Positions 9,874 to 51,620 of a stretch of DNA of 51,697 nt are shown piece after piece; the first letter of the stretch is position 1; each line of letters opens with the position of its first letter. The stretch is from an uncultured Lachnospiraceae bacterium. Its GTDB lineage: Bacteria; Bacillota; Clostridia; Lachnospirales; Lachnospiraceae. Below the pieces are notes generated by a model that saw only the letters and a list, made by a program, of their open reading frames with translations, had not been told where the DNA came from and searched no databases. The stretch spans positions 1-51,697 of the forward strand of contig CACXMK010000015.1 in assembly GCA_902768735.1 (NCBI GenBank), written 5' to 3'. The position numbers and the translations under genes were made by a program.

Positions 9874-9898
9874 AAAAATGACCCCAGAGGTCATTTTC
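9874..9898 (-). terminator. Repeat-derived intrinsic terminator of the HAD gene
   Basis: A 9-bp stem (AAAATGACC at 9875-9883, GGTCATTTT at 9889-9897) with loop CCAGA or TCTGG carries the repeat core but has GACC/GGTC arms instead of TACC/GGTA. On the minus strand it ends in TTTTT, six bases after the HAD stop codon, so it should terminate that gene. Confidence 0.8.
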
Positions 9899-11541: not shown

Positions 11542-11565
11542 AAAACGACCTCTGGGGTCATTTTT
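11542..11565 (-). terminator. Repeat-derived terminator-like hairpin
   Basis: Minus strand: AAAATGACC, CCAG-type loop, AGGTCGTTTT. The arms pair as GACC/GGTC plus A/T with one mismatch. It is the same GACC variant of the palindrome as at 9874-9898. It lies between the small hypothetical gene (stop at 11593) and the FMN-oxidase gene start. Confidence 0.65.
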
Positions 11566-40302: not shown

Positions 40303-40320
40303 CACCAACAAATCAAAACC

Positions 40321-40340
40321 GACCCCAGAGGTCACTTTTT
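40321..40340. repeat. GACC variant of the palindromic repeat
   Basis: GACCCCAGAGGTC at 40321-40333, followed on the plus strand by ACTTTTT. It is close behind the stop codon of the symporter remnant (minus strand), in the position of a terminator, but the stem is short. Confidence 0.6.
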
Positions 40341-41246
40341 CGCACCAACTTCCCTTGCAAACGCATCCAGCTCCACCGTCCGGATCGCCATCCCCAGCCC
40401 CGTCTGCATGTTGATGATGAACACATTCGCCACCATCAACAAACCGACGACATCGGCAGGCATCCCCAGCTGCTCCAGCAGGATCATGAACACCGCCATA
40501 ATTCCACCCGGCACTTTAGGGCTTGCGACGCTGAGCTGCGTGACCATGATGATCATCATCAGGATCTACGGCAGCGAAAGCGGCGTCCCGTAGTACTTGG
40601 CAGCGAAGAGAGCAGCCGTCACAAGCGGCGCTATCGTAGATGGCGAAAACATAGCCTGCGACAGCGGCACCCAGAACCCAACAACTTTCTCATCGATCTT
40701 CAGCACCTCCCGGGCCGTCTCGAACTGCGTGGACATCGCCACCGTTCCGCTCCCCGTAGTAAAACCGATGATCGCGGGCGCAGTATAATCTTTCAGGACG
40801 GTCTGGACCCGAACGCGGTATCTCAGGCAGAAATACAGGACAAACAACACCGTAAACGGAATCGTCACGACATAATTCGCCACCACGAGCTTCCAGACGC
40901 TCAGGACACTCTTCCAGCTGTTCTGCGTGATCGCTTTGTATATGCTCAGGAAGATCGTCAGCGGAATGATCTTGGCGACCAGCCTCATGACGGCAAAGAT
41001 CAGCTGGTACGCCTCGTTAATGAGCGCCCGCAGGTTCGGGATCTTCTCGTCGAGCGTCAGCGCCGCGACTCCCAGCCCATACGCGATCACAATGATGTGG
41101 ATGACCTTGCTCTCAACAAACGGCGACACCAGGTCCCCCGGGATCAGCTCGAACAGCATCTTCACTATCACCGAGAGGTCAAACGTGCCGTTTGCGGATG
41201 CCGAAATCCCCGGGATGTAAAAACGACCTCTGGGGTCATTTTTCAT
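40332..41246 (-). pseudogene. Broken dicarboxylate/amino-acid:cation symporter
   Basis: A decayed sodium/proton:dicarboxylate (GltP/DctA, DAACS) symporter. The frame from 41246 encodes transmembrane sequence (LPLTIFLS-type, KDYTAPAIIGFTTGSGTVAM, STQFETAREVLKIDEKV). It hits an in-frame TAG at 40566-40568, then continues in the same frame (ILMMIIMVTQLSVASPKVPG, LLMVANVFIINMQTGLGMA) to 40332. The serine-rich hairpin is reduced to TTGSGTVAM. The first roughly 100-150 residues of a normal 400-residue carrier are missing, replaced at the 5' end by a palindromic repeat that supplies the first codons. Nonsense mutation plus N-terminal deletion make it a probable pseudogene. Confidence 0.8.
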
Positions 41247-41274: not shown

Positions 41275-42882
41275 TCACTTCGCCAGATCTCCCGCCGACA
41301 TGAGTCCGTACGCGCTGTCCGCTTTCCGCACCGCGTTCAGGATCGCCTCGCTGATCACTTCCGCTGCAAGGCTTCCCACCAGATCCTGGTCAGCCGCGAC
41401 CTCGCCGACGGACACCGCGTAGATGCTGTCACCATCCGCCGTCGTGTGCACCGGGTTGATCGACCGCGCGTACCCGTCGTGCCCCATTCCCGCGATCTTG
41501 CACAGCTGTGCCTTCGTGAACGCCGCGTTCGTCACGATCACCGCCAGCGTCGTGTTGCCCGTGAACTTGTTGTCCACGACCTCAATGGATCCCTTCATGT
41601 ACTCCATCGTGCTCCGAAGCCCTGTTTTGTCCTCTGTCAAAAGACCGGCGACCTGCTCACCCGTCTTAGGATCGAAAATGTCTCCCAGCGCGTTAAGGAC
41701 TACGATCGCACCGACCTGCAGATCCCCGATCTGAACGGCATAGCTTCCGATACCTGTCTTCATCGCATAGTCCATGCCCGCGATCTTGCCAACGGAAGCC
41801 CCGCAGCCGGCGCCATAGTTGCCGTCCCTATAATTCGGATCCACAAAAGCGCGTCTCGCCGCCTCATACCCCATCGCCGCGTCCGGCCTCACCGTGCCGG
41901 ATCCCACAGAGAGGTCATAAATATCCGACTGCGCGACTAGCGGCACCTTCGCAAATCCGGTCTCATATCCGTATCCGTGTTCTTCCAGATACTGCATGAC
42001 ACCGTTTGCCGCCCCAAGGCCAAAAGCACTTCCCCCTGAGAGCAAAACAGCGTGCACAGTCTGTGCTGCCATAAGCGGATTAAGGAGCTGGCTGTCACGG
42101 GAAGCGGGTCCGCCCCCTCTCACGTCCAGTCCTGCGCACATGCCGTTCTCGCTGATGAGAACCGTGCAGCCTGTCGCCGCTGCCGGATCCTCCGTCTGCC
42201 CGATTCTGATCGAACCGATCGACGTAATGGGGATCTCTTTCCAGCCGGCCTCAGCTGTCGCTGTGACCTGCGGAGCAACCGCTGCAGCCTGCGGAGCTGC
42301 GTCCTGTGAAGCAACCGCTGCAGCCTGCGGAGCAACCGCTGTGTCCTGAGAAGCAACTGCTGCATCCTGCGGAGGAGTTGCTATTTCCTGTGAAGGAGTT
42401 GCCGCCGCCTGATGAGAAGCCTCTTCCTGCGTAGGAGCCTCCGGAACCGCCTGCTCCTGCGGCTCAGCCTGAACTGCCTCTACCTGCTGAGGAACCGCCT
42501 GCTGCTGTACATTCTCTGTCTGCTGGGGAGCCGCCTGCTGCTGTACATTCTCTGTCTGCTGGGGAGCCGCCTGCTCCTGCTGTCCAGCCTGCACAGCCTC
42601 TGTCTGATCTGCCGCCTGCTCCTGCACAGTCTCTGTCTGCTCAACCGCCTGCTCCTGCTGTCCAGCCTGCACAGCCTCTGTCTGATCTGCCGCCTGCTCC
42701 TCAACCGCCTGCTCCTGCACAGCCTCTGCCTGCTGCTCCTGCGCAACCGCCTGCTCCTGCGAAGCCGCCTGCTCCTGCGAAGCCGCCGCCTGCGTATTCT
42801 TAGCCCCGCACCCTGCCACTGACACGCACAGTGTCAAAACAGCGCACATGATCGTGATGTATCTCCTCATTTTTCTTTTCAT
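41275..42882 (-). CDS. Lipoprotein P1-family peptidase (DmpA/NylC-like) with Gln/Ala-rich spacer
   Basis: A 535-residue surface-anchored self-processing aminopeptidase/amidase. Signal peptide MKRKMRRYITIMCAVLTLCV has lipobox VAGC with Cys25. Residues about 28-210 are low-complexity repeats (EQAVQEQA and AVQAGQQEQA types), and the P1 catalytic domain is about 213-535 (SGGSAFGLGAANGVM, GNYGAGCGASVGK, and GNTTLAVIVTNAAF). By analogy with NylC-type enzymes, autocleavage could occur between Asn and Thr in GNTTL (about residue 440). The start at 42882 follows AGGAGGAAAAGG; the frame to 42909 lies upstream of that site. Family members hydrolyse N-terminal D- or beta-amino acids or oligoamides; substrate unknown. 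Confidence 0.85.
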   Translation of the reverse strand: MKRKMRRYITIMCAVLTLCVSVAGCGAKNTQAAASQEQAASQEQAVAQEQQAEAVQEQAVEEQAADQTEAVQAGQQEQAVEQTETVQEQAADQTEAVQAGQQEQAAPQQTENVQQQAAPQQTENVQQQAVPQQVEAVQAEPQEQAVPEAPTQEEASHQAAATPSQEIATPPQDAAVASQDTAVAPQAAAVASQDAAPQAAAVAPQVTATAEAGWKEIPITSIGSIRIGQTEDPAAATGCTVLISENGMCAGLDVRGGGPASRDSQLLNPLMAAQTVHAVLLSGGSAFGLGAANGVMQYLEEHGYGYETGFAKVPLVAQSDIYDLSVGSGTVRPDAAMGYEAARRAFVDPNYRDGNYGAGCGASVGKIAGMDYAMKTGIGSYAVQIGDLQVGAIVVLNALGDIFDPKTGEQVAGLLTEDKTGLRSTMEYMKGSIEVVDNKFTGNTTLAVIVTNAAFTKAQLCKIAGMGHDGYARSINPVHTTADGDSIYAVSVGEVAADQDLVGSLAAEVISEAILNAVRKADSAYGLMSAGDLAK

Positions 42883-42946
42883 GGTTGACCTTTTCCTCCT
42901 AAGCCGCATCTTTCCCTAAGGCCTTCTTAACGTTCCTCTCCGCTAT

Positions 42947-42991
42947 AAAAGAGGCATTCTGTACCGAAGGAGGTCGCAGAATGCCTCTTTT
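42947..42991 (-). terminator. Intrinsic terminator between the zinc hydrolase and P1 peptidase genes
   Basis: A 15-bp perfect stem (AAAAGAGGCATTCTG at 42947-42961 with CAGAATGCCTCTTTT at 42977-42991) and T-run on the minus strand. It ends the zinc-hydrolase operon, so the P1 peptidase probably has its own promoter. Confidence 0.88.
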
Positions 42992-43026: not shown

Positions 43027-44187
43027 TTATTTCAGATAACTGCCCAGCCAGCTGCCTCCAAGATATTGGGGATCCGCGTTGAGGAACAGATCCGCGTATC
43101 CGGGAACGCCGCTGTAGACGATCTGCTTGTCAGGGTTCGCGTTGCTGTAAGCCAGGGAATACTCGTAGATTCCCTGCAGGTGGCGGCCGCAGCGCTCCTC
43201 GATCGGATGGCCCGTTATGCCGTTGACCTCCCACGGTACATACAGCATTCCCAGGTCCTCTCCTTTCTCATAGCACTTATCCTGTCCGCCCATGACCTGC
43301 TTTTGCGATGTTTTGCCGCGCAAGCGTCCCTGGGCGGCGTTTGCCGTCTCCATGAGGATCGCCATCGTGTCGGTGTAGTCGCCCAGCTCGCGGTGCGTCA
43401 GCCCGTGGAAATTGGTCGGCGACTGCTCCAGCGACATCTCGATGCCTTCCAGCAGCAGGTTGATGCAGCCCTCCGAAGCGATTTCCATCGCATCCTGATG
43501 CGCCACTGTGGCGTTGATGACGGGATACTCCGGGGATGCCTCATGCAGGTCAAAAGTCAGACCTACGTCTTCTGTTCTGATCAGCTCCGCTACGCCGTAA
43601 GCGGCTTTCTCCGTGAAAGTGCCGTCCGCGCGTCCGGGATAGGCGCGGTTGATATTGCGCGTCTCGGAACCGGACAGGCGCTGGCCGGAGGCATAGTGCA
43701 CATAGACGTCCGGATCGGGCCACTGGTCGATCGGATTCGTGGCGCGGGATCCGAAGCGGAATGTGCGGGGACCGCTCTGGGTCTGCAGCGTGAAATACTG
43801 CATGTTGCCCTCGCCGGGATCGTTGTGGGTCATGCCGCTGCGGTTGGTGTAGGGAATAACATAAACGGTGCCCTTCTCCACGACAGCATTCTCAATGAAC
43901 GTGAACGCGGACATGTAGCCGGAAGGCTCGTTGCCGTGCGTTCCGCCCAGGATCAGCATCTTGCCGCCCGGCTCGCTTCCCTCAAGGATGTAGACCGGCG
44001 TATCTGCGTTCGTATCTTTGAGACCGTCGAACCAGTCAGAGAGCATCTTGACTTCTGTGACGCCAGGTCCCTTCACTGGCATGGGCAGCTCGCGCGCCGC
44101 GAGGAAGTTCACGCCTGTGACACAGCAGACCACGATGGACAGCGCCAGGCAGAGGCAGGCTGTGATAATTCTTTTGTTGATCTTCAT
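43027..44187 (-). CDS. Succinylglutamate desuccinylase/aspartoacylase-type zinc hydrolase, membrane anchored
   Basis: A 386-residue M14-like zinc carboxypeptidase/deacylase. An N-terminal hydrophobic segment (ITACLCLALSIVVCCVTGVN, about 8-27) is an uncleaved anchor or signal peptide, so the domain is extracytoplasmic, unlike the cytoplasmic AstE. Zinc ligands are visible as HGNE in LILGGTHGNEPSGYM (about 80-95) and a His in TFDLHEASPEYPV (about 217-229). GGGAGGG precedes the ATG. It lies directly after the 48-residue peptide gene and the DctM-type permease, suggesting that it releases the permease substrate from a conjugate such as an N-acyl amino acid. The exact reaction is not predictable. 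Confidence 0.85.
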   Translation of the reverse strand: MKINKRIITACLCLALSIVVCCVTGVNFLAARELPMPVKGPGVTEVKMLSDWFDGLKDTNADTPVYILEGSEPGGKMLILGGTHGNEPSGYMSAFTFIENAVVEKGTVYVIPYTNRSGMTHNDPGEGNMQYFTLQTQSGPRTFRFGSRATNPIDQWPDPDVYVHYASGQRLSGSETRNINRAYPGRADGTFTEKAAYGVAELIRTEDVGLTFDLHEASPEYPVINATVAHQDAMEIASEGCINLLLEGIEMSLEQSPTNFHGLTHRELGDYTDTMAILMETANAAQGRLRGKTSQKQVMGGQDKCYEKGEDLGMLYVPWEVNGITGHPIEERCGRHLQGIYEYSLAYSNANPDKQIVYSGVPGYADLFLNADPQYLGGSWLGSYLK

Positions 44188-44200
44188 CGCTCAGCCCTCC

Positions 44201-44347
44201 CTACTTGATCATCAGTACACGAAGAATGAGCGGGATCAGCACCATGGCGCAGTTGAGCTGGCCGGTGAGCTTTTCTTCCGTGAACAGGTTCCAGCCCACC
44301 AGTGCGATCACCATGGCGACGATCAAACGGTAAATAATTGTAATCAT
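44201..44347 (-). CDS. 48-residue two-helix membrane peptide beside the DctM-type permease
   Basis: Short gene with a clear AAAGGAG ribosome site nine bases before the ATG. The protein begins MITIIYRLIVAMVIALVGWN and continues LFTEEKLTGQLNCAMVLIPL, ending ILRVLMIK: a hydrophobic helix, a short charged loop, and a second hydrophobic helix. It sits between the DctM-type permease (22 bp) and the zinc hydrolase (13 bp), with no other gene at that place. TRAP transporters normally have a four-helix DctQ small subunit of about 150-170 residues; none is encoded here, so this peptide may be its minimal replacement or a stabilising subunit. I recall, but cannot confirm, similar peptides beside DctM genes. 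Confidence 0.78.
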   Translation of the reverse strand: MITIIYRLIVAMVIALVGWNLFTEEKLTGQLNCAMVLIPLILRVLMIK

Positions 44348-44369
44348 CGTTCCGTTCTCCTTTCTCTCA

Positions 44370-45641
44370 TCAGATGATCAAAAACGACAGCTGGTTGGCA
44401 AATACGATGAACAGGATGCCCCACACGATGATGATAAAGCAGGGCAGCAGGCACTTTTTCAGTACCGGCGTGTACTTCGGCATGCCGACCACCTGCGCGG
44501 CAAAAATACCGGCAAGCGCCGTCGGAGGCATCATATCGCCCAGTGACGCGATCAGCGACAGAGCGCCGGCGACGATGATCTCCTTCTTCGCAAGGAACGA
44601 AAGAAGGAAAGGAACGCCGAGCACGCTGGCAGAGCCGAAGGACGACACCGCGCCGAACAGCGGCATGGAAACGGCCATTGCAATGTAACGGGCAAAGCTG
44701 GGCATGCTCAGGCACGCGTTGACGATGAATCCGCGCACGCCGGTCAGCGTCATGATCTGGATGAACATACCGACGCCCATCAGGATTCCCATAACGGGAA
44801 GGACCGCGCCTACGGACTCCTTCGCCATCTTGGGCACATTGAACTTGTTTCCGGTAAAGCATCCCACCGCCGCGCAGATCAGGAACACCAGCGGCATGCC
44901 GATGTCGGGGATCGAAGGCACGAGCTTATTGACGACCATCAAAAAGATGGCGAGGATCAGCGGGATGTAGATGCGGAACCCGTATTTCTCGCGGGACTGA
45001 GTGCGAAGCTTTGCGCGGACCTCCTCGTAGTCCATGTTCTTTACATATTTGTAAGCGAACATCAGCACAAAGAGGAACGCCAAAGGGAAGGTCATCAGCG
45101 TGAGCGGCAGGCCGAATCCGCTGTACGGGATGTCGATACCTGCGCCGATGATCATCGCCGGAATGTTGGTAGGCGGAGCGATCATTCCGAGAATACCGCC
45201 CATTGCCAAAATACAGGCCGTCTCCAGGATCGGCACACCCATGAGCATCAGGACAGGCGCCATGATGGAGCCCGCGGAGAGCACGGATGCGGTAGAGGAA
45301 CCGGTGATCATTCCGGGGAACATGATGATGACCATGATCATGCACAGCATCAGGGCGGGCATCTTATGGAACCGCTCGATGATGACTGATGAAATGGCGT
45401 CCAGCGTACCGGACTCCTGTATGACCTTCATAAAGATCATTGCGGTGACGATGACAAGGATCGTGTCTACATAGGCGAACATTCCCTCGACCAGGTGGCG
45501 CAGGGCAAAACCCTTTCCGCCGACCAGTGATCCAGTGATCGCAGAGAGCACCATGGAGATGCTGACCGGAAGTTTGCAGAGGAAGCAGCCCAGCAGGAAC
45601 ACGCCGATCATCGCAAGGAAGGTAAGCAGTTCTGTTGTCAT
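44370..45641 (-). CDS. TRAP-type large permease (DctM-like)
   Basis: A 423-residue membrane carrier with about 11-12 helices of the DctM family, starting MTTELLTFLAMIGVFLLGCF. Family features: two similar halves with GSSTASVLSAGSIMAPVL (about 113-130) and SFGSASVLGVPFLLSF (about 331-346), and GMIAPPTNIPAMIIGAG (about 150-166). Such permeases import organic acids using sodium with a periplasmic DctP and membrane DctQ. Neither is recognisable here; instead the upstream gene encodes a triple-domain lipoprotein and the downstream gene a 48-residue peptide. The start at 45641 follows GGAGGTCTCT. Confidence 0.88.
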   Translation of the reverse strand: MTTELLTFLAMIGVFLLGCFLCKLPVSISMVLSAITGSLVGGKGFALRHLVEGMFAYVDTILVIVTAMIFMKVIQESGTLDAISSVIIERFHKMPALMLCMIMVIIMFPGMITGSSTASVLSAGSIMAPVLMLMGVPILETACILAMGGILGMIAPPTNIPAMIIGAGIDIPYSGFGLPLTLMTFPLAFLFVLMFAYKYVKNMDYEEVRAKLRTQSREKYGFRIYIPLILAIFLMVVNKLVPSIPDIGMPLVFLICAAVGCFTGNKFNVPKMAKESVGAVLPVMGILMGVGMFIQIMTLTGVRGFIVNACLSMPSFARYIAMAVSMPLFGAVSSFGSASVLGVPFLLSFLAKKEIIVAGALSLIASLGDMMPPTALAGIFAAQVVGMPKYTPVLKKCLLPCFIIIVWGILFIVFANQLSFLII

Positions 45642-45656
45642 AGAGACCTCCATTGA

Positions 45657-45686
45657 GGGGAGAGGCAGCAGCTGCGGCCTCTCCCC
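45657..45686. other. Hairpin between the triple-domain lipoprotein and DctM genes
   Basis: A 10-bp perfect stem GGGGAGAGGC/GCCTCTCCCC with a 10-base loop and no T-run. As after the ABC binding-protein gene, it may keep the lipoprotein mRNA more stable than the permease mRNA. Confidence 0.55.
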
Positions 45687-45701
45687 ATTGAAACCGGGGA
45701 A

Positions 45702-47468
45702 TTACTTGAATGCAGCGGGGAGCACGTTAGCAACGTCGCTGATGCTCTCGATCGTGTCCAAACGAATGCCCTTCGATGAGCAGATGCCGGACATCAGGCC
45801 GTCCGTGTCGCCGGATTTGACGACAATGGCGTAGTCCGCTTTCTCAAAGATGGGCGAAATGAACTTGTCGGACAGATCGCCGCGGCGGGCATTGCCGCCC
45901 GTATGCATGGCGATGATCGTCAGTCCCTTACTCTTCGCGGCGTCGATCAGCTCGCCTACGCGCGCCAATTCGCCGTCCGCGTCGATACCCGCAGCGCCAA
46001 GTCCTTTGGAAGAGCCTCCCACTACGACGATGAGCGTCTTGGCGTCTCCCAGGTCGGCGGAGGTCGCAAGGTTGTTGATCTTAAAGTCCATTCCTTTTTT
46101 GCTCATGACTGTGCCGATCATCTGATAATCGGCACTCTGTCCGCCGGAAGTCACGAGCGCAGGATACTCTGCAACAGCCGTGCCCGAAGAAGCAGCGTCA
46201 CCTGCAGAGCTGTCTGTAGAGGCAGCAGTGCCTGCAGAGCTGTCCGCAGCGGCAGCAGGAGCTGCACTGCCGGATCCACCGCCCGCAAATGCTGCGGGAA
46301 GCACTTCGGCAACATCACTGATACTGTTGATCGTATCCATGCGGATGCCCTTCGAGGAGCAGATGCCGGCCATCATGCCGTCCGTGTCGCCGGATTTCAC
46401 AACGATGGCGTAGTCCGCTTTCTCAAAGATCGGCGCGATGAACTTGTCGGACAGGTCGCCGCGGCGGGCATTGCCGCCCGTATGCATGGCGATGATCTTC
46501 AGTCCCTTGCTCTTTGCGGCGTCGATCAGCTCGCCTACGCGCGCCAGCTCGCCGTCCGCGTCGATACCCGCAGCGCCAAGTCCCTTGGAGGAGCCGCCCA
46601 CCACAACGATGAGCGTCTTGGCATCGCCAAGGTCAGCGGAGGTCGCAAGGTTGTTGATCTTGAAATCCATTCCCTTTTTGGTCATGACTGTGCCGATCAT
46701 CTGGTAATCAGCGCTCTGACCGCCGGAAGTCACCAGTACGGGGAATTCGGCGATCGCTTCACCCGCTGCCGCACCGCCGGAGCCGCCGGAAGCCGAGCCT
46801 GCGGAAGCACTGCCTGTGAACAGGGCAGGAAGCACAGTGGCCACTTCGCTGATGCTCGCGATCCCGGTCATCGTGATGCCGTTTGCGGAGCAGATGCCGG
46901 CCATGAGGCCGTCCGTGTCACCGGACTCGACCACGATGGCGTAATCCGCTTTCTCAAAGATCGGTGCAATGAACTTGTCGGACAGGTCGCCTCTGCGGGC
47001 GTTTCCGCCCGTGTGCATGGCGATGACCGGCATGCCTTTGCCCTTGGCGGCATCGATCAGCTCGTTCACGCGCGCCAGCTCGCCGTCCGCATCGATACCC
47101 GCGGCGCCAAGCCCCTTGGAGGAGCCGCCTACCACGACGATGAGTGTTTTGGCATCGCCAAGATCGGCGGAGGTCGCCAGGTTATTGACCGTATAGTCCA
47201 TCCCCTGTTTGCCCATGACCGTTGCGATCATCTGGTAGTCGGCGCTCTGGCCTCCCGAAGTCACCAGCGCGGGAGACTGCGCAATGGCCTCTCCTACTCC
47301 GGCAGCCTCGCCGCCCGAGCTGCCGCCGGAGCCCCCCGCATTGCTGCTTGCGGTCGCTGTGTGCGGAGGAGCGGGCAGATCAGTGGTGGTCGTGCCCTCT
47401 TCCGCGCAGGCGGAGAGGGCAAACACTATGGTAAGCGCCATAAAAAGCGCTGTGATCTTCCGTTTCAT
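45702..47468 (-). CDS. Triple-domain lipoprotein (three copies of a DUF6305-like domain), likely binding protein of the DctM permease
   Basis: A 588-residue lipoprotein. Signal peptide MKRKITALFMALTIVFALSA with lipidation Cys21 (SAC), then a Gly/Ser-rich spacer. Three homologous domains follow (about 66-205, 243-390, 436-588), each opening P(A/V)LVTSGGQSADYQMI and containing ATSADLGDAKTLIVVVGGSS, then KGLGAAGIDADGELARV, IAMHTGGNARRGDLSDKFI and EKADYAIVV(K/E)SGDTDG. Domains are joined by Gly/Ala/Ser-rich linkers. From memory this resembles DUF6305; the identity is unverified. AAGGAATAAAAAA precedes the ATG. Its position next to DctM suggests a capture role replacing DctP. Confidence 0.82.
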   Translation of the reverse strand: MKRKITALFMALTIVFALSACAEEGTTTTDLPAPPHTATASSNAGGSGGSSGGEAAGVGEAIAQSPALVTSGGQSADYQMIATVMGKQGMDYTVNNLATSADLGDAKTLIVVVGGSSKGLGAAGIDADGELARVNELIDAAKGKGMPVIAMHTGGNARRGDLSDKFIAPIFEKADYAIVVESGDTDGLMAGICSANGITMTGIASISEVATVLPALFTGSASAGSASGGSGGAAAGEAIAEFPVLVTSGGQSADYQMIGTVMTKKGMDFKINNLATSADLGDAKTLIVVVGGSSKGLGAAGIDADGELARVGELIDAAKSKGLKIIAMHTGGNARRGDLSDKFIAPIFEKADYAIVVKSGDTDGMMAGICSSKGIRMDTINSISDVAEVLPAAFAGGGSGSAAPAAAADSSAGTAASTDSSAGDAASSGTAVAEYPALVTSGGQSADYQMIGTVMSKKGMDFKINNLATSADLGDAKTLIVVVGGSSKGLGAAGIDADGELARVGELIDAAKSKGLTIIAMHTGGNARRGDLSDKFISPIFEKADYAIVVKSGDTDGLMSGICSSKGIRLDTIESISDVANVLPAAFK

Positions 47469-47610: not shown

Positions 47611-49554
47611 TTAATACGCCAGCGCCTTGCCGTCACGGCGGGGATCAGCGCCGCCGCGCAGCGTGCCGTCCTCGAGGATCTCAATGCCCTGAACGCCGCC
47701 GAAGAACAGGTTCCAGGAACCCTTGTCGACCATCACATGGCCTTTGCCTTCCAGCTCAGCTACAACTTCAGCTGACACAGGCGTCACGCCGTCGGACTCA
47801 TAGCAGAGCTCTTCCTTGTGGTTGTCGAAGATACGCGCGGTATCGATCGCATCCTGGATGTCCATATCGTAGTCGATCATACGCTCCATGATCTGGGTGA
47901 TCGTAGGCCAGATACGAAGGCCGCCGGGGGTTCCGATCGTAAGATACGGAGTTCCGTCGGGATAGAGCACGATAGACGGGGACATGGAGCTGAGCGGGCG
48001 CTTTCCTCCTGCCACGCAGTTGACAGAAGCAGGATCGGAGGAGAAGTCGTCCATCTCGTCGTTCATGATGAAGCCGTATCCGGGGATAGCGACCTTGTTG
48101 CCGTAGAAGTCGTTGATCGTCTGTGTGCAGGCCACCATGTTGCCCCACTGGTCGACCACGGAGAAGGATGTCGTCGAGCTGGACTCGTACAGGTTCGGGT
48201 CATCCGCCTGGTAGCTGCCGCTCTTGTCAGTGATCTTCGCCGCCAGGACCTTCGCGTATTCCTTGCTGGTCAGGCCTTTAAGCGGGACATCTGTAAAAGC
48301 AGTGTCGGCCATGTATTTCGCGCGGTCCGCGAACGCCATCTTGAACGCCTCGGAGAACAGGTGGATATAGTCTGTGGTGTTGATGCCGTAGGACGACATG
48401 TCAAAATTCTCAAGGATGTTGAGTGCTTCGATCAGGTGCGTGCCGCCGGAGGAAGCCGGGGGCAGGGAGTAGATCGTGTAATCGCGGTATGTGGAAGTAA
48501 CGGGCTCACGGACTTCGACCTTGTAGTTTGCAAGGTCTTCGGTGGTCATCACACCGCCGTACTTCTGGATGGTGTCAGCGATGGCCTGCGCGACTTCGCC
48601 TTTGTAGAAAGCATCCGCGCCGCCTTCGGCGATCATCTGCAGTGTTTTGGCCAGATCCGGGTTCTTCCAAATGGTGCCGACTTCGAGCGGCAGTCCGTTC
48701 TCGTCGAGATAGTAGCCTGCCACTTCGGGCATGTTCGCCACTTCAAAATACTCATCTTCCGTGCAGCTCTTCATTGTGACCGTAACGACATAGCCGTTGT
48801 TTGCAAGGTCGATCGCGGGCTGCATCAGCTGCTGGCGAGTCAGGTTGCCGGAACCGAAGTTCTCAAACGCGTACTCCATACCTGCCACCTCGCCGGGTGT
48901 GCCGGAAGCCATGCCGCCGACCTGGGAGAGGTGGGAGTAGCTGCCGGTGAACTCTACGCCGTTGGGATCTTTGAACATCCCGACATTGCCTTCCGCATCC
49001 AGCCACATCTCGGGAGTAGCGTTTGCGGGCGCGATCTCGCGGTAGTCGATGACGGTAACTTCCTTGGTCTCAGCATTATAGATGATCATGAATCCGCCGC
49101 CGCCAAGTCCGGAAGTATAGGGCTCTGCAACGCCAAGCGCGTAGGACGTGGCGATCGCTGCGTCAACAGCGTTTCCGCCTGCCTGCAGGATATCGAGGCC
49201 GGCCTTGGATGCGTACCAGCTGGAGCTGGCTACGGCGCCGTTTGAGCCGGTGGCGTCACGGTCAGTGCGCTTTGTCTGCAGGTTTTCATCGTAGGGAAGC
49301 CATACGCCTTCAGGGGCTTCCGCGACCGCTTCGGTCTCAGCGGGAGCCTCGGCCTCGGCAGTGGGCTCTGTAGCAGGCTCTGTTGCGGGCTCAGCAGCGG
49401 GCTCTGCAGCAGGTTCAGCAGCGGGTTCTTCAGCAGGCTGGGCCTCAGCAGCAGGCGCTGACTGTGCGGCCGGCTCGGACTTCTGTCCGCAGGCGGCAAG
49501 AGACAGCACCATAACAAAAGTTAAGAAAAGTGCGATCAGTCTACGGGTTTTCAT
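47611..49554 (-). CDS. Gamma-glutamyltransferase lipoprotein (copy 1, intact)
   Basis: A 647-residue surface gamma-glutamyltranspeptidase/hydrolase. Signal peptide MKTRRLIALFLTFVMVLSLA with lipobox LAAC (Cys22), then a PAE-rich spacer (about 25-80). Catalytic features: GGNAVDAAIATSYALGVAEP (about 125-144), GLGGGGFMIIY, nucleophilic Thr after self-cleavage in SSSTTSFSVVDQWGNM (about 458-473), and RPLSSMSPSIVL (about 515-526). It hydrolyses or transfers gamma-glutamyl groups from glutathione-like peptides. Start chosen at 49554 from GGAGGAAAAACGA; the longer frame to 49617 has no site. It presumably frees glutamate or a dipeptide for the neighbouring permease. Confidence 0.93.
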   Translation of the reverse strand: MKTRRLIALFLTFVMVLSLAACGQKSEPAAQSAPAAEAQPAEEPAAEPAAEPAAEPATEPATEPTAEAEAPAETEAVAEAPEGVWLPYDENLQTKRTDRDATGSNGAVASSSWYASKAGLDILQAGGNAVDAAIATSYALGVAEPYTSGLGGGGFMIIYNAETKEVTVIDYREIAPANATPEMWLDAEGNVGMFKDPNGVEFTGSYSHLSQVGGMASGTPGEVAGMEYAFENFGSGNLTRQQLMQPAIDLANNGYVVTVTMKSCTEDEYFEVANMPEVAGYYLDENGLPLEVGTIWKNPDLAKTLQMIAEGGADAFYKGEVAQAIADTIQKYGGVMTTEDLANYKVEVREPVTSTYRDYTIYSLPPASSGGTHLIEALNILENFDMSSYGINTTDYIHLFSEAFKMAFADRAKYMADTAFTDVPLKGLTSKEYAKVLAAKITDKSGSYQADDPNLYESSSTTSFSVVDQWGNMVACTQTINDFYGNKVAIPGYGFIMNDEMDDFSSDPASVNCVAGGKRPLSSMSPSIVLYPDGTPYLTIGTPGGLRIWPTITQIMERMIDYDMDIQDAIDTARIFDNHKEELCYESDGVTPVSAEVVAELEGKGHVMVDKGSWNLFFGGVQGIEILEDGTLRGGADPRRDGKALAY

Positions 49555-49604
49555 TCGTTTTTCCTCCATTTTTTGACAATACAGTAACAGCATTATTTGT
49601 TGAT

Positions 49605-49634
49605 GCGCCCCCTCCATCTGCGCGAAGGGGGCGC
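49605..49634. other. Hairpin between the two gamma-glutamyltransferase genes
   Basis: A 9-bp perfect stem GCGCCCCCT/AGGGGGCGC at 49605-49613 and 49626-49634, with a 12-base loop and no T-run on the minus strand. It is intercistronic, between the two paralogous genes. Confidence 0.55.
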
Positions 49635-49690: not shown

Positions 49691-51620
49691 TCAATAACCA
49701 ACTGCCTTGCCGTCCTGACGGGGGTCAGCTGTGCCGTACAGGCTGCCGTCCTCAAGGAACTGGATCGCCTGCACTGCGCCGGAAGCCGCGGTCTTGATCT
49801 CGCCGTGGCCCATTTCTTCAAGTTTCTTGACGGTCTCTTCCGTGACCGCATAGTCCTCGTAACCCTGGAGAGGTGTCTCATACTGCAGGTTGTTCATCGG
49901 ACCGTTGTTCCAGATCTTCGGGATGCTGATCGCATCGTGCAGCGGAATGCCGCTGTCGATGACGCGGGTGATGATCTGCGCCACGGAAGCGAAAATACGC
50001 GCGCCGCCCGGAGTTCCCAGGACCATGAAGGGAGAGCCGTCCTCTTTGAGGAGCACTGTAGGGCTCATGGAAGACAGAGGCTTCTTGCCGGGCTCGATCT
50101 TGTTGACGCTGTTGGGATCCGTGGAGAAGTCGTCCATCTGGTTGTTCATCATAAAGCCATAGCCGTCGACCATCACGCCGCTGCCGAAGTAGTAGTTGAT
50201 GGTCTTTGTGATGGCAACGCAGTTGCCTTCCACATCCGCGACGGAGAAGTGCGTCGTGTCGGTGTGCTCGTAGAGCGTGGGATCGCCGAAATCAACGGGC
50301 TCCTTAGCCACTTCCAGATCGATGAGCGCTGCGCGCTCCTTGGCGTACTCTTTGTTTGTCAGGCCGTCCAGGGGAACATCCGCAAAAGCAGTGTCCGCCA
50401 TGTACTGTGCGCGGTCTGCATAGGAAAGCTTGAAGGTCTCTGCAAGAAGGTGGATGTATTCAGGGGAGTTGACCTTCATGGAAGCGACGTCAAAGTTCTC
50501 AAGGATGTTCAGGATCTCGATCAGGTGCGTACCGCCGGATGACGGAGGCGGCGAGGAGATGACCTGATAGCCGCGGTATGTGCCGGTGACCGGCTCGCGG
50601 ACCATTACTTCGTAGTTTGCAAGGTCATCCAGGGTCATGACGCCGCCGTACTTTGCGAGGGTGTCAACGACTGCCTGGGCGATCTCGCCCTTGTAGAATC
50701 CGTCTGCGCCTTCATCGGCGATCTTCTGGAGCGCCTTAGCAAGATCCGGATTCGCGATCACATTGCCTGTCTCGTAGGGAAGGCCCATATCATTCCAGTA
50801 AACTTTCTGCATTTCCGGGAACTTGAGCGCTGTCTCATATGCGTCAGAGATCGCATTAGCGCAATATGCCGAAACAGTAAAGCCCTCGGTTGCAATACGG
50901 ATCGCGGGCTCCATGACCTCCTGGCGGGTCAGGTTGCCGGAACCGTAATTGTCAAGCAGGTACAGAAGGCCGGCAACTTCGCCGGGAACACCGGAGGCAA
51001 GGCCGCCTGTCATGGTATTTCCGTTGTTCTTGCCTTCCGCGTCAAGGTAAAGGTCAAGTGTTGCAGCTGCAGGCGCAACTTCGCGGAAGTCGATAAAGAA
51101 GTTCTCGCCTGAAGCGGTGTGGATGGTGCAAAGACCGCCGCCGCCAAGACCGGAAGTGAACGGCTCGCAGACGCCGAGCGCGAAGCCCATGGCTACTGCC
51201 GCGTCAACAGCGTTTCCGCCCTTCTGCATGATCTCTGCGCCGACCTGGGAGACCTCATACTTAGAGGCAGTTGCCATAGCAGTCTTTGCTGTGGCGTCAG
51301 GTCGTGATGCGGTTGCCCTGAGCATCTACGGTCTCAAAGCCTTCGACCGAGTAAGCCGGGGTGAGCGCCGGAGCTTCAGCGACCTGCTCTGCAGGGGCTT
51401 CCGCCTGCTCTGCAGGAGCTTCTGCCTGCTCTGCAGGAGCTTCCGCCTGCTCTGCAGGGGCTTCCGCCTGCTCTGCGGGGGCTTCCGCCTGCTCTGCGGG
51501 GGCTTCCGCCTGCGCTGCCGGCTCTGCTGCAGGGGCAGACTGCTGGCTGCTCTGGCCGCCGCAGGCGATGAGCGAAAGGCTCATCATGAGCGCCAAAGCA
51601 ATGGATAGCACTTTTTTCAT
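49691..51620 (-). pseudogene. Gamma-glutamyltransferase lipoprotein (copy 2, frameshifted)
   Basis: Second GGT gene, split by a +1 frameshift near 51300. The N-terminal part (51297-51620) has a signal peptide with lipobox LIAC, then a long PAEQAEA repeat spacer, and stops after DAQGNRITT. In another frame RPDATAKTAMATASKYEVSQ continues with an otherwise complete GGT domain (to 49691), including the nucleophile region HTDTTHFSVADVEGN and KPLSSMSPTVLL. Copy 1 suggests that the intact protein would run on across this point. No homopolymer lies at the junction. Either the gene is dead or the assembly has an error there. GGAGG lies seven bases before the ATG. Confidence 0.82.

Follow-up and report, generated by a model that had tools for sequence, protein, structure and literature searches.

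Results

Organization of the locus

We analysed a stretch of 51,697 nucleotides from an uncultured Lachnospiraceae bacterium (CACXMK010000015.1; hereafter, the window), concentrating on a minus-strand cassette that encodes two gamma-glutamyltransferases (GGT), a lipoprotein made of DUF6305 domains, a permease resembling the DctM subunit of tripartite ATP-independent periplasmic (TRAP) transporters, a peptide of 48 residues and a zinc hydrolase. A preliminary description of the last four genes had seen in them a compact TRAP-like system of Gram-positive cells, in which the lipoprotein captures the ligand, the peptide replaces DctQ and the hydrolase produces that ligand, perhaps an acyl amino acid or peptide conjugate. 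The features are, in the order of the minus strand:

49691..51325, minus strand: GGT 2, gamma-glutamyltransferase (PF01019, 549 bits)
47611..49617, minus strand: GGT 1, gamma-glutamyltransferase with an N terminus that is lipobox-like by eye (PF01019, 532 bits)
45702..47468, minus strand: lipoprotein with three DUF6305 domains (PF19823, 492 bits, three stretches)
46818-47276, 46287-46745 and 45708-46163, minus strand: the DUF6305 domains within the lipoprotein (PF19823)
44370..45653 (alternative start 45641), minus strand: DctM-like permease of the ion-transporter superfamily (PF06808, 32.4 bits)
44201..44347, minus strand: two-helix membrane peptide of 48 residues, conserved in relatives, with a good ribosome-binding site (AAAGGAG) upstream
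43027..44187, minus strand: zinc hydrolase of the AstE/AspA type, exported as judged by eye, its N terminus being hydrophobic (PF24827, 31.3 bits)
42947..42991, minus strand: intrinsic terminator closing the unit (15-bp stem and T-run)

The order of the four genes from lipoprotein to hydrolase, the spacers between permease and peptide (22 bp) and between peptide and hydrolase (13 bp), and the terminator were all found where the preliminary description had placed them. Its spacer of 60 bp between lipoprotein and permease holds for the in-frame ATG at 45641, four codons on from the ATG at 45653, with which the spacer is 48 bp. The terminator (42991-42947) is strong by folding energy (-26.6 kcal/mol, z -9.0 relative to shuffles), though missing from the list of the consensus scan. 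GGT 1 also matches TIGR00066 (521 bits, cut-off 357.85), while the assignment of GGT 2 to the family was made by PF01019 alone.

Conservation of the cassette

We searched for the permease in one genome per species and kept the best 80 of 125 relatives. According to the titles of their records, these loci come from Clostridia/Bacillota (38), Synergistota (17), Aminicenantes (12), Spirochaetes (10) and other groups (3). Six-frame profile searches, with profiles built from these same loci, revealed the peptide in 79 loci, the hydrolase in 78, DUF6305 in 75 and GGT in 71. When the analysis is restricted to the 37 loci whose flanks reach 8.5 kb or more on either side (the long-flank loci), peptide, hydrolase and GGT are present in all 37 and DUF6305 in 35. 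The permease is tied to the peptide and to DUF6305 across major bacterial groups, and the conservation of both beside DctM genes, on which the preliminary description depended, is thus observed in 79/80 and 75/80 loci. The two upstream GGT genes are also part of the conserved gene set, beyond the four genes described at first. The presence of the cassette in Synergistota, Spirochaetes and Aminicenantes rules out a system specific to Gram-positive cells. Taken together, the sequences indicate that GGT, DUF6305, permease, peptide and hydrolase form an old and fixed cassette, spread across at least four major bacterial groups.

Some loci have larger arrangements. For example, L149 and L152 encode a hydrolase, DUF6305, a second hydrolase, GGT, permease, peptide, histidine kinase and response regulator. 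Four loci (L040, L042, L044 and L081) have two tandem divergent permease-hydrolase sets, with the peptide behind both permeases in the first three and behind one of them in L081, which suggests paralogous systems with different substrates.

The peptide is a conserved protein family

The peptide lies at most 120 nt from the permease stop codon in 79 of the 80 relatives. The sole locus without it (L062) reaches the end of its contig 82 nt past that stop. A simpler motif scan retrieved the peptide in 78 loci, 73 of them with a length of 47-48 residues, and among these 78 peptides Y6 and R43 are invariant while K48 is kept in 75. With 11 residues inserted between the two helices, one peptide (L016:11319-11498) reaches a length of 59 residues. 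The gene is under purifying selection. The window peptide and that of its closest relative (L066) show 4, 2 and 11 differences at the three codon positions, with proportions of synonymous (pS) and nonsynonymous (pN) differences of 0.30 and 0.06. Twelve disjoint close pairs, taken among the 36 sequences of exactly 48 codons, show 76, 22 and 186 differences at codon positions 1, 2 and 3 (mean pS 0.47, pN 0.07).

We also searched with the peptide itself in 398 genomes of the phylum, which gave 48 matches in 23 genomes, with up to 8 in each. We fetched 30 of these loci, and in 29 (window included) a permease homologue is no more than 200 nt away; the remaining locus (L109) matched the peptide weakly, over 25 residues. 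Twelve divergent paralogues retrieved by the profile all end in a C-terminal LR-x-x-x-(I/V)K motif. None of the 48 matches is a natural fusion with the permease (the longest open frame has 249 residues). A spurious or unrelated open reading frame is scarcely credible as an explanation of the peptide. It is short and has no above-cut-off match in Pfam (best DUF3377, E 0.087) or NCBIfam (none), but a chance frame is ruled out by its presence in 79/80 loci, its length, purifying selection and the return of the permease by the peptide-first search. A recognizable remnant of DctQ is ruled out as well (profile-profile probability 1.7). Hence, by these sequence criteria, the peptide represents a real, conserved and previously unannotated protein family. 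In a joint model of permease and peptide from a relative (L007), the peptide is predicted as two confident helices (predicted local distance difference test, pLDDT, 85.0; predicted template modelling score, pTM, 0.84), although such a pTM is no proof of docking.

DUF6305 as a candidate binding domain

The lipoprotein carries PF19823 in three stretches, in agreement with its description as a triple-domain protein. This triplication was found in the window, L004, L006 and L066, whereas tblastn revealed a single domain at the cassette elsewhere. It is a local elaboration. The model of the third domain is confident (pLDDT 97), and none of the 50 listed matches to solved folds is close (best TM 0.57). 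There are 14 invariant columns in 76 sequences, and polar residues among them (T11, Q15, S57, K59, E71, R74, H93 and R99) suggest a binding pocket. A lipobox is present in 32/36 Clostridia genes against 7/39 elsewhere, as expected for binding proteins.

One locus (L124) carries a fusion of DUF6305 with an AstE-like hydrolase, placed between TIGR04332 and the kinase, and genomes G227 and G275 have DUF6305 frames of similar length. Locally, the lipoprotein (45702-47468) weakly resembles dihydropteroate synthase profiles and sequences in a collinear manner, at a GGxS loop and an MHxxG segment. We rejected a relationship with this enzyme since the confident model fits its fold poorly (6omz, TM 0.39/0.26), and read the similarity as chance or convergence.

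Association with poly-gamma-glutamate genes

The recurrent neighbours of the cassette are PgsB, PgsC and TIGR04332, found in 23 of the 37 long-flank loci (the PgsB of L033, with 209.9 bits, is just below the cut-off of 222.7). These genes were not found in the window itself. The copies of the host genome are on another contig (C30), where a single run encodes PgsB (TIGR04012, 321.1 bits, cut-off 222.7), PgsC (TIGR04011, 98.4 bits, cut-off 96.45) and TIGR04332 (319.5 bits, cut-off 100). At the genome level, CapC was detected in 36 of the 398 genomes (34 above cut-off) and in 21 of the 23 peptide-positive ones, the others being G273 and the weak G095. DUF6305 occurs in 22 of these 23. Fisher tests that ignore phylogeny give p = 2.9e-23 for the pairing of the peptide with CapC and p = 2.2e-22 for that with DUF6305. 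Conversely, 15 of the 36 CapC-positive genomes have no match to the peptide profile at E ≤ 0.001, and a local scan revealed a divergent peptide in one of the 15 (G088, locus L136).

GGT enzymes cleave or transfer gamma-glutamyl bonds. Because GGT and poly-gamma-glutamate genes travel with the cassette, the substrate, proposed earlier to be an acyl amino acid or peptide conjugate, is better read as a gamma-glutamyl compound.

The hydrolase passes the cut-off of 25 bits of PF24827 (AstE_AspA_cat) and keeps H84, E87, N180, R181, H215 and E280 in 76/76 sequences. We take H84, E87, H215 and E280 to be metal-site residues and N180 and R181 to be the N-R pair. Its eight sequence matches in the PDB are Mlr6093, AstE/AspA-type, DoeB-type and secreted proteins. 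The folds of PghP and AstE/AspA are related, and both are zinc-hydrolase families, the window protein being of the AstE/AspA type with conserved metal-site residues; a difference is that PghP is absent from these eight matches. PghP is described in PMC4497714 as a zinc-dependent poly-gamma-glutamate hydrolase related to carboxypeptidase A. By its title, one entry in the reference list of that paper ties the GGT of B. subtilis to the degradation of capsule polyglutamate.

The cassette also resembles the known PgsBCAE and CapBCADE systems. To our knowledge, the known poly-gamma-glutamate synthase includes no such permease, DUF6305 or AstE-type hydrolase. Yet PgsB, PgsC and TIGR04332 accompany many cassettes and are present in the host genome, and the known system has its own CapD, a GGT-family enzyme, and a tiny peptide, CapE. 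PMC4497714 gives the synthase as PgsB, PgsC, PgsA and PgsE, and a title in its reference list gives CapE 47 residues. In contrast to the window peptide, which follows the permease, pgsE lies downstream of pgsA (PMC5751247). CapE and PgsE are likened to the window peptide here by description.

Comparison of the permease with TRAP and other transporters

The window permease matches PF06808 (DctM) above the cut-off of 23.8, and CitMHS with 27.7 bits, below the cut-off of that family. All 22 sampled permeases match PF06808 (E ≤ 0.01), and no other family is shared by the whole sample: CitMHS is matched by 20, DcuC by 7 and an NhaC-type family by 6. Against TRAP DctM proteins collected from the downstream side of 27 DctQ genes, the permease family aligns across 392 columns, which is most of its length (hhalign probability 95.5). 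Three paralogues are more distant: one passes PF06808 and Na_H_antiporter, one only Na_H_antiporter, and the third fails DctM and CitMHS by a hair. The model of the L007 permease has TRAP-M among its best fold matches (SiaM, 7qha_B, TM 0.60/0.66), not ahead of DASS (VcINDY, 5ul7_A, TM 0.60/0.64) or ArsB (10tp_A, TM 0.61/0.67).

The preliminary description had noted the lack of DctP and DctQ beside the permease, and this was borne out. The nine window proteins scanned include no DctP (PF03480), and neither PF03480 nor PF04290 (DctQ) has a match in the host genome, which is 85.5% complete. Its further expectation that no such partner is encoded elsewhere in the host stands for DctP and DctQ, but a region of contig C91 (L148 358-5046) encodes a TRAP binding protein of the TAXI type (TIGR02122, 286 bits). 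This protein adjoins a GltS sodium/glutamate symporter, and a divergent permease of the CitMHS/DASS type lies there too; it is unusual for a TRAP receptor to be paired with GltS.

The system shares with TRAP transporters such as SiaPQM the homology to DctM, a SiaM-like model and, next to the permease, a candidate for an exported binding protein as well as a small membrane protein. It differs in that DctQ and DctP are missing from the window and undetected in the host genome, the peptide has two predicted helices and does not resemble DctQ in profile comparison, and DUF6305 consists of one alpha/beta domain (about 155 residues) with no DctP-type protein among its 50 listed fold matches. Judging from these families, the DctM part of a TRAP transporter is present, but no DctQ was found and no DctP or TAXI protein was identified as working with the permease (the TAXI protein on C91 might do so), such that the system would not be a TRAP transporter by definition. 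The resemblance to DASS, CitMHS and ArsB transporters (VcINDY, NaS1, ArsB) in fold equals that to TRAP-M, and CitMHS is matched by most sampled permeases, but only PF06808 matches this family throughout. We know of no 48-residue partner for DASS, CitMHS or ArsB transporters.

Discussion

A proposed module of extracellular gamma-glutamyl metabolism

These results lead us to favour, by a modest preponderance, the hypothesis that the cassette is a widespread module of extracellular gamma-glutamyl metabolism, most likely one that recovers poly-gamma-glutamate made by the cell itself, or gamma-glutamyl peptides. From gene content, conservation and family membership we infer how it could work, including where the enzymes act, what is bound and the direction of transport. 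GGT and the carboxypeptidase-like AstE/AspA-type hydrolase would act outside the membrane on gamma-glutamyl bonds, the latter cutting much as PghP does, and would release glutamate or short gamma-glutamyl units. DUF6305 would bind the released product, and the permease would import it, presumably driven by ions. The two-helix peptide may be an obligate membrane subunit with the part that DctQ has in TRAP systems, enlarging or stabilizing the scaffold. In SiaQM, both ends of the permease are outside and the scaffold is made larger by SiaQ (PMC9971032). In many genomes, expression would be adjusted by a sensor kinase and a regulator encoded nearby, of a kind also found beside stand-alone DUF6305.

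Several observations weigh against this hypothesis. The distance correlation of the peptide with the permease (0.82) does not exceed that of the hydrolase (0.90) or DUF6305 (0.87), with GGT at 0.76, and is therefore no evidence of contact. No poly-gamma-glutamate gene lies in the analysed flanks of 14/37 long-flank loci, and the p-values of the genome-level associations take no account of phylogeny. ArsB, among the best fold matches of the permease, is a family of exporters. The TAXI protein of the host may serve another transporter or this permease. Finally, DUF6305 is missing from the locus in two long-flank Spirochaetes loci (L038 and L039), where permease and peptide are kept, and it often occurs in other contexts. 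It was detected in 46 of the 398 genomes, 24 of them without a peptide match, and in 18 of the 20 loci fetched from the latter (L127-L146) it is directly beside a histidine kinase and a response regulator. Close to DUF6305 in these 20 loci are genes of a binding-protein cluster (16), a permease cluster (12) and an ATPase cluster (11). One representative tested per cluster matched SBP_bac_5, BPD_transp_1, and ABC_tran with oligo_HPY, as in ATP-binding cassette transporters of the oligopeptide type. One of the 20 loci (L136) has a divergent cassette and another (L142) has neither cassette nor kinase-regulator pair, with a hydantoinase/oxoprolinase gene next door. Given the adjacent kinase and the nearby oligopeptide-type binding protein, DUF6305 need not deliver to the permease, and it is a candidate for a new kind of sensor partner protein.

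These data bear on three other explanations. DUF6305 might be the co-receptor of a sensor histidine kinase, with permease and peptide importing alone and the peptide acting in assembly or regulation rather than as a substitute for DctQ. This is a serious, if doubtful, possibility: it accounts for the peptide-negative genomes, for the two Spirochaetes loci and for the kinase and regulator in 22/37 long-flank loci, but it sits poorly with the retention of DUF6305 at 35/37 of the latter and with the lack of the pair in the window and in 15/37. Instead of the cell's own polymer, the substrate could be gamma-glutamyl compounds from outside, glutathione and gamma-glutamyl peptides of the diet among them. 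Gut samples are named in the titles of some records, the window has two GGTs, oligopeptide transporter genes lie near DUF6305 in other genomes and the 14 loci lacking polymer genes nearby fit as well; nevertheless, the strong genome-level tie with CapC and the local one with PgsB, PgsC and TIGR04332 make an outside source rather unlikely. It seems more improbable still that the permease serves polyglutamate formation, as an exporter or exchanger of glutamate or gamma-glutamyl oligomers, and does not import breakdown products. The linkage to PgsB/PgsC, the matches of the fold to ArsB and to an entry titled MLEN-METQ, and the 47-residue CapE and the PgsE of known polyglutamate synthases (PMC4497714 and PMC5751247) speak for it, but exported hydrolases and an exported binding-type domain suit degradation and capture, and PgsB/PgsC are not near the cassette in 14/37 long-flank loci.

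We only tentatively suggest a new class of binding-protein-assisted secondary transporter, where the peptide would do the scaffold work of DctQ and DUF6305, a new extracytoplasmic domain binding gamma-glutamyl compounds, would be common to this permease, to sensor kinases and to hydrolases. Apart from the peptide, the components belong to known families (PF19823, PF06808, PF01019, PF24827, TIGR04011, TIGR04012 and TIGR04332). We found no description of the cassette in the literature searched, mostly at the level of listings, and no mention of DUF6305 in the open-access literature searched. If the hypothesis is correct, it would reveal a possible and hitherto undescribed route to recover the building blocks of polyglutamate, and account for the way in which numerous bacteria of several phyla deal with polyglutamate or gamma-glutamyl peptides outside the cell. 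It would also assign functions to DUF6305 and to the unannotated 48-residue family, provide a minimal system to ask what DctQ does in TRAP transporters, and offer candidate enzymes and transporters for the breakdown and recovery of an industrially used polymer.

Other features of the window

Just downstream of the terminator, a minus-strand gene (41275-42909) encodes a family S58 peptidase (PF03576, 110 bits) with a likely export signal followed by a long Gln/Glu/Ala-rich stretch. It is followed by a degenerate-looking sodium:dicarboxylate symporter (40332-41246, minus strand, PF00375) that is split over two frames, lacks the first ~100 profile positions and has a copy of a palindrome at either end. 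This dispersed palindrome, AAAATGACCCCAGAGGTCATTTT, and its variants occur in the window at 9875-9897, 11542-11564, 40316-40338 and 41220-41242 (four sites at up to 3 mismatches). Allowing at most 1 mismatch, the host genome has 55 sites, and the reversed pattern has 0. The region 13779-40000 appears, from the look of its open reading frames, to be devoted to the utilization of pectin and galacturonate, with sugar-acid kinases, an aldolase, a uronate isomerase and related enzymes.

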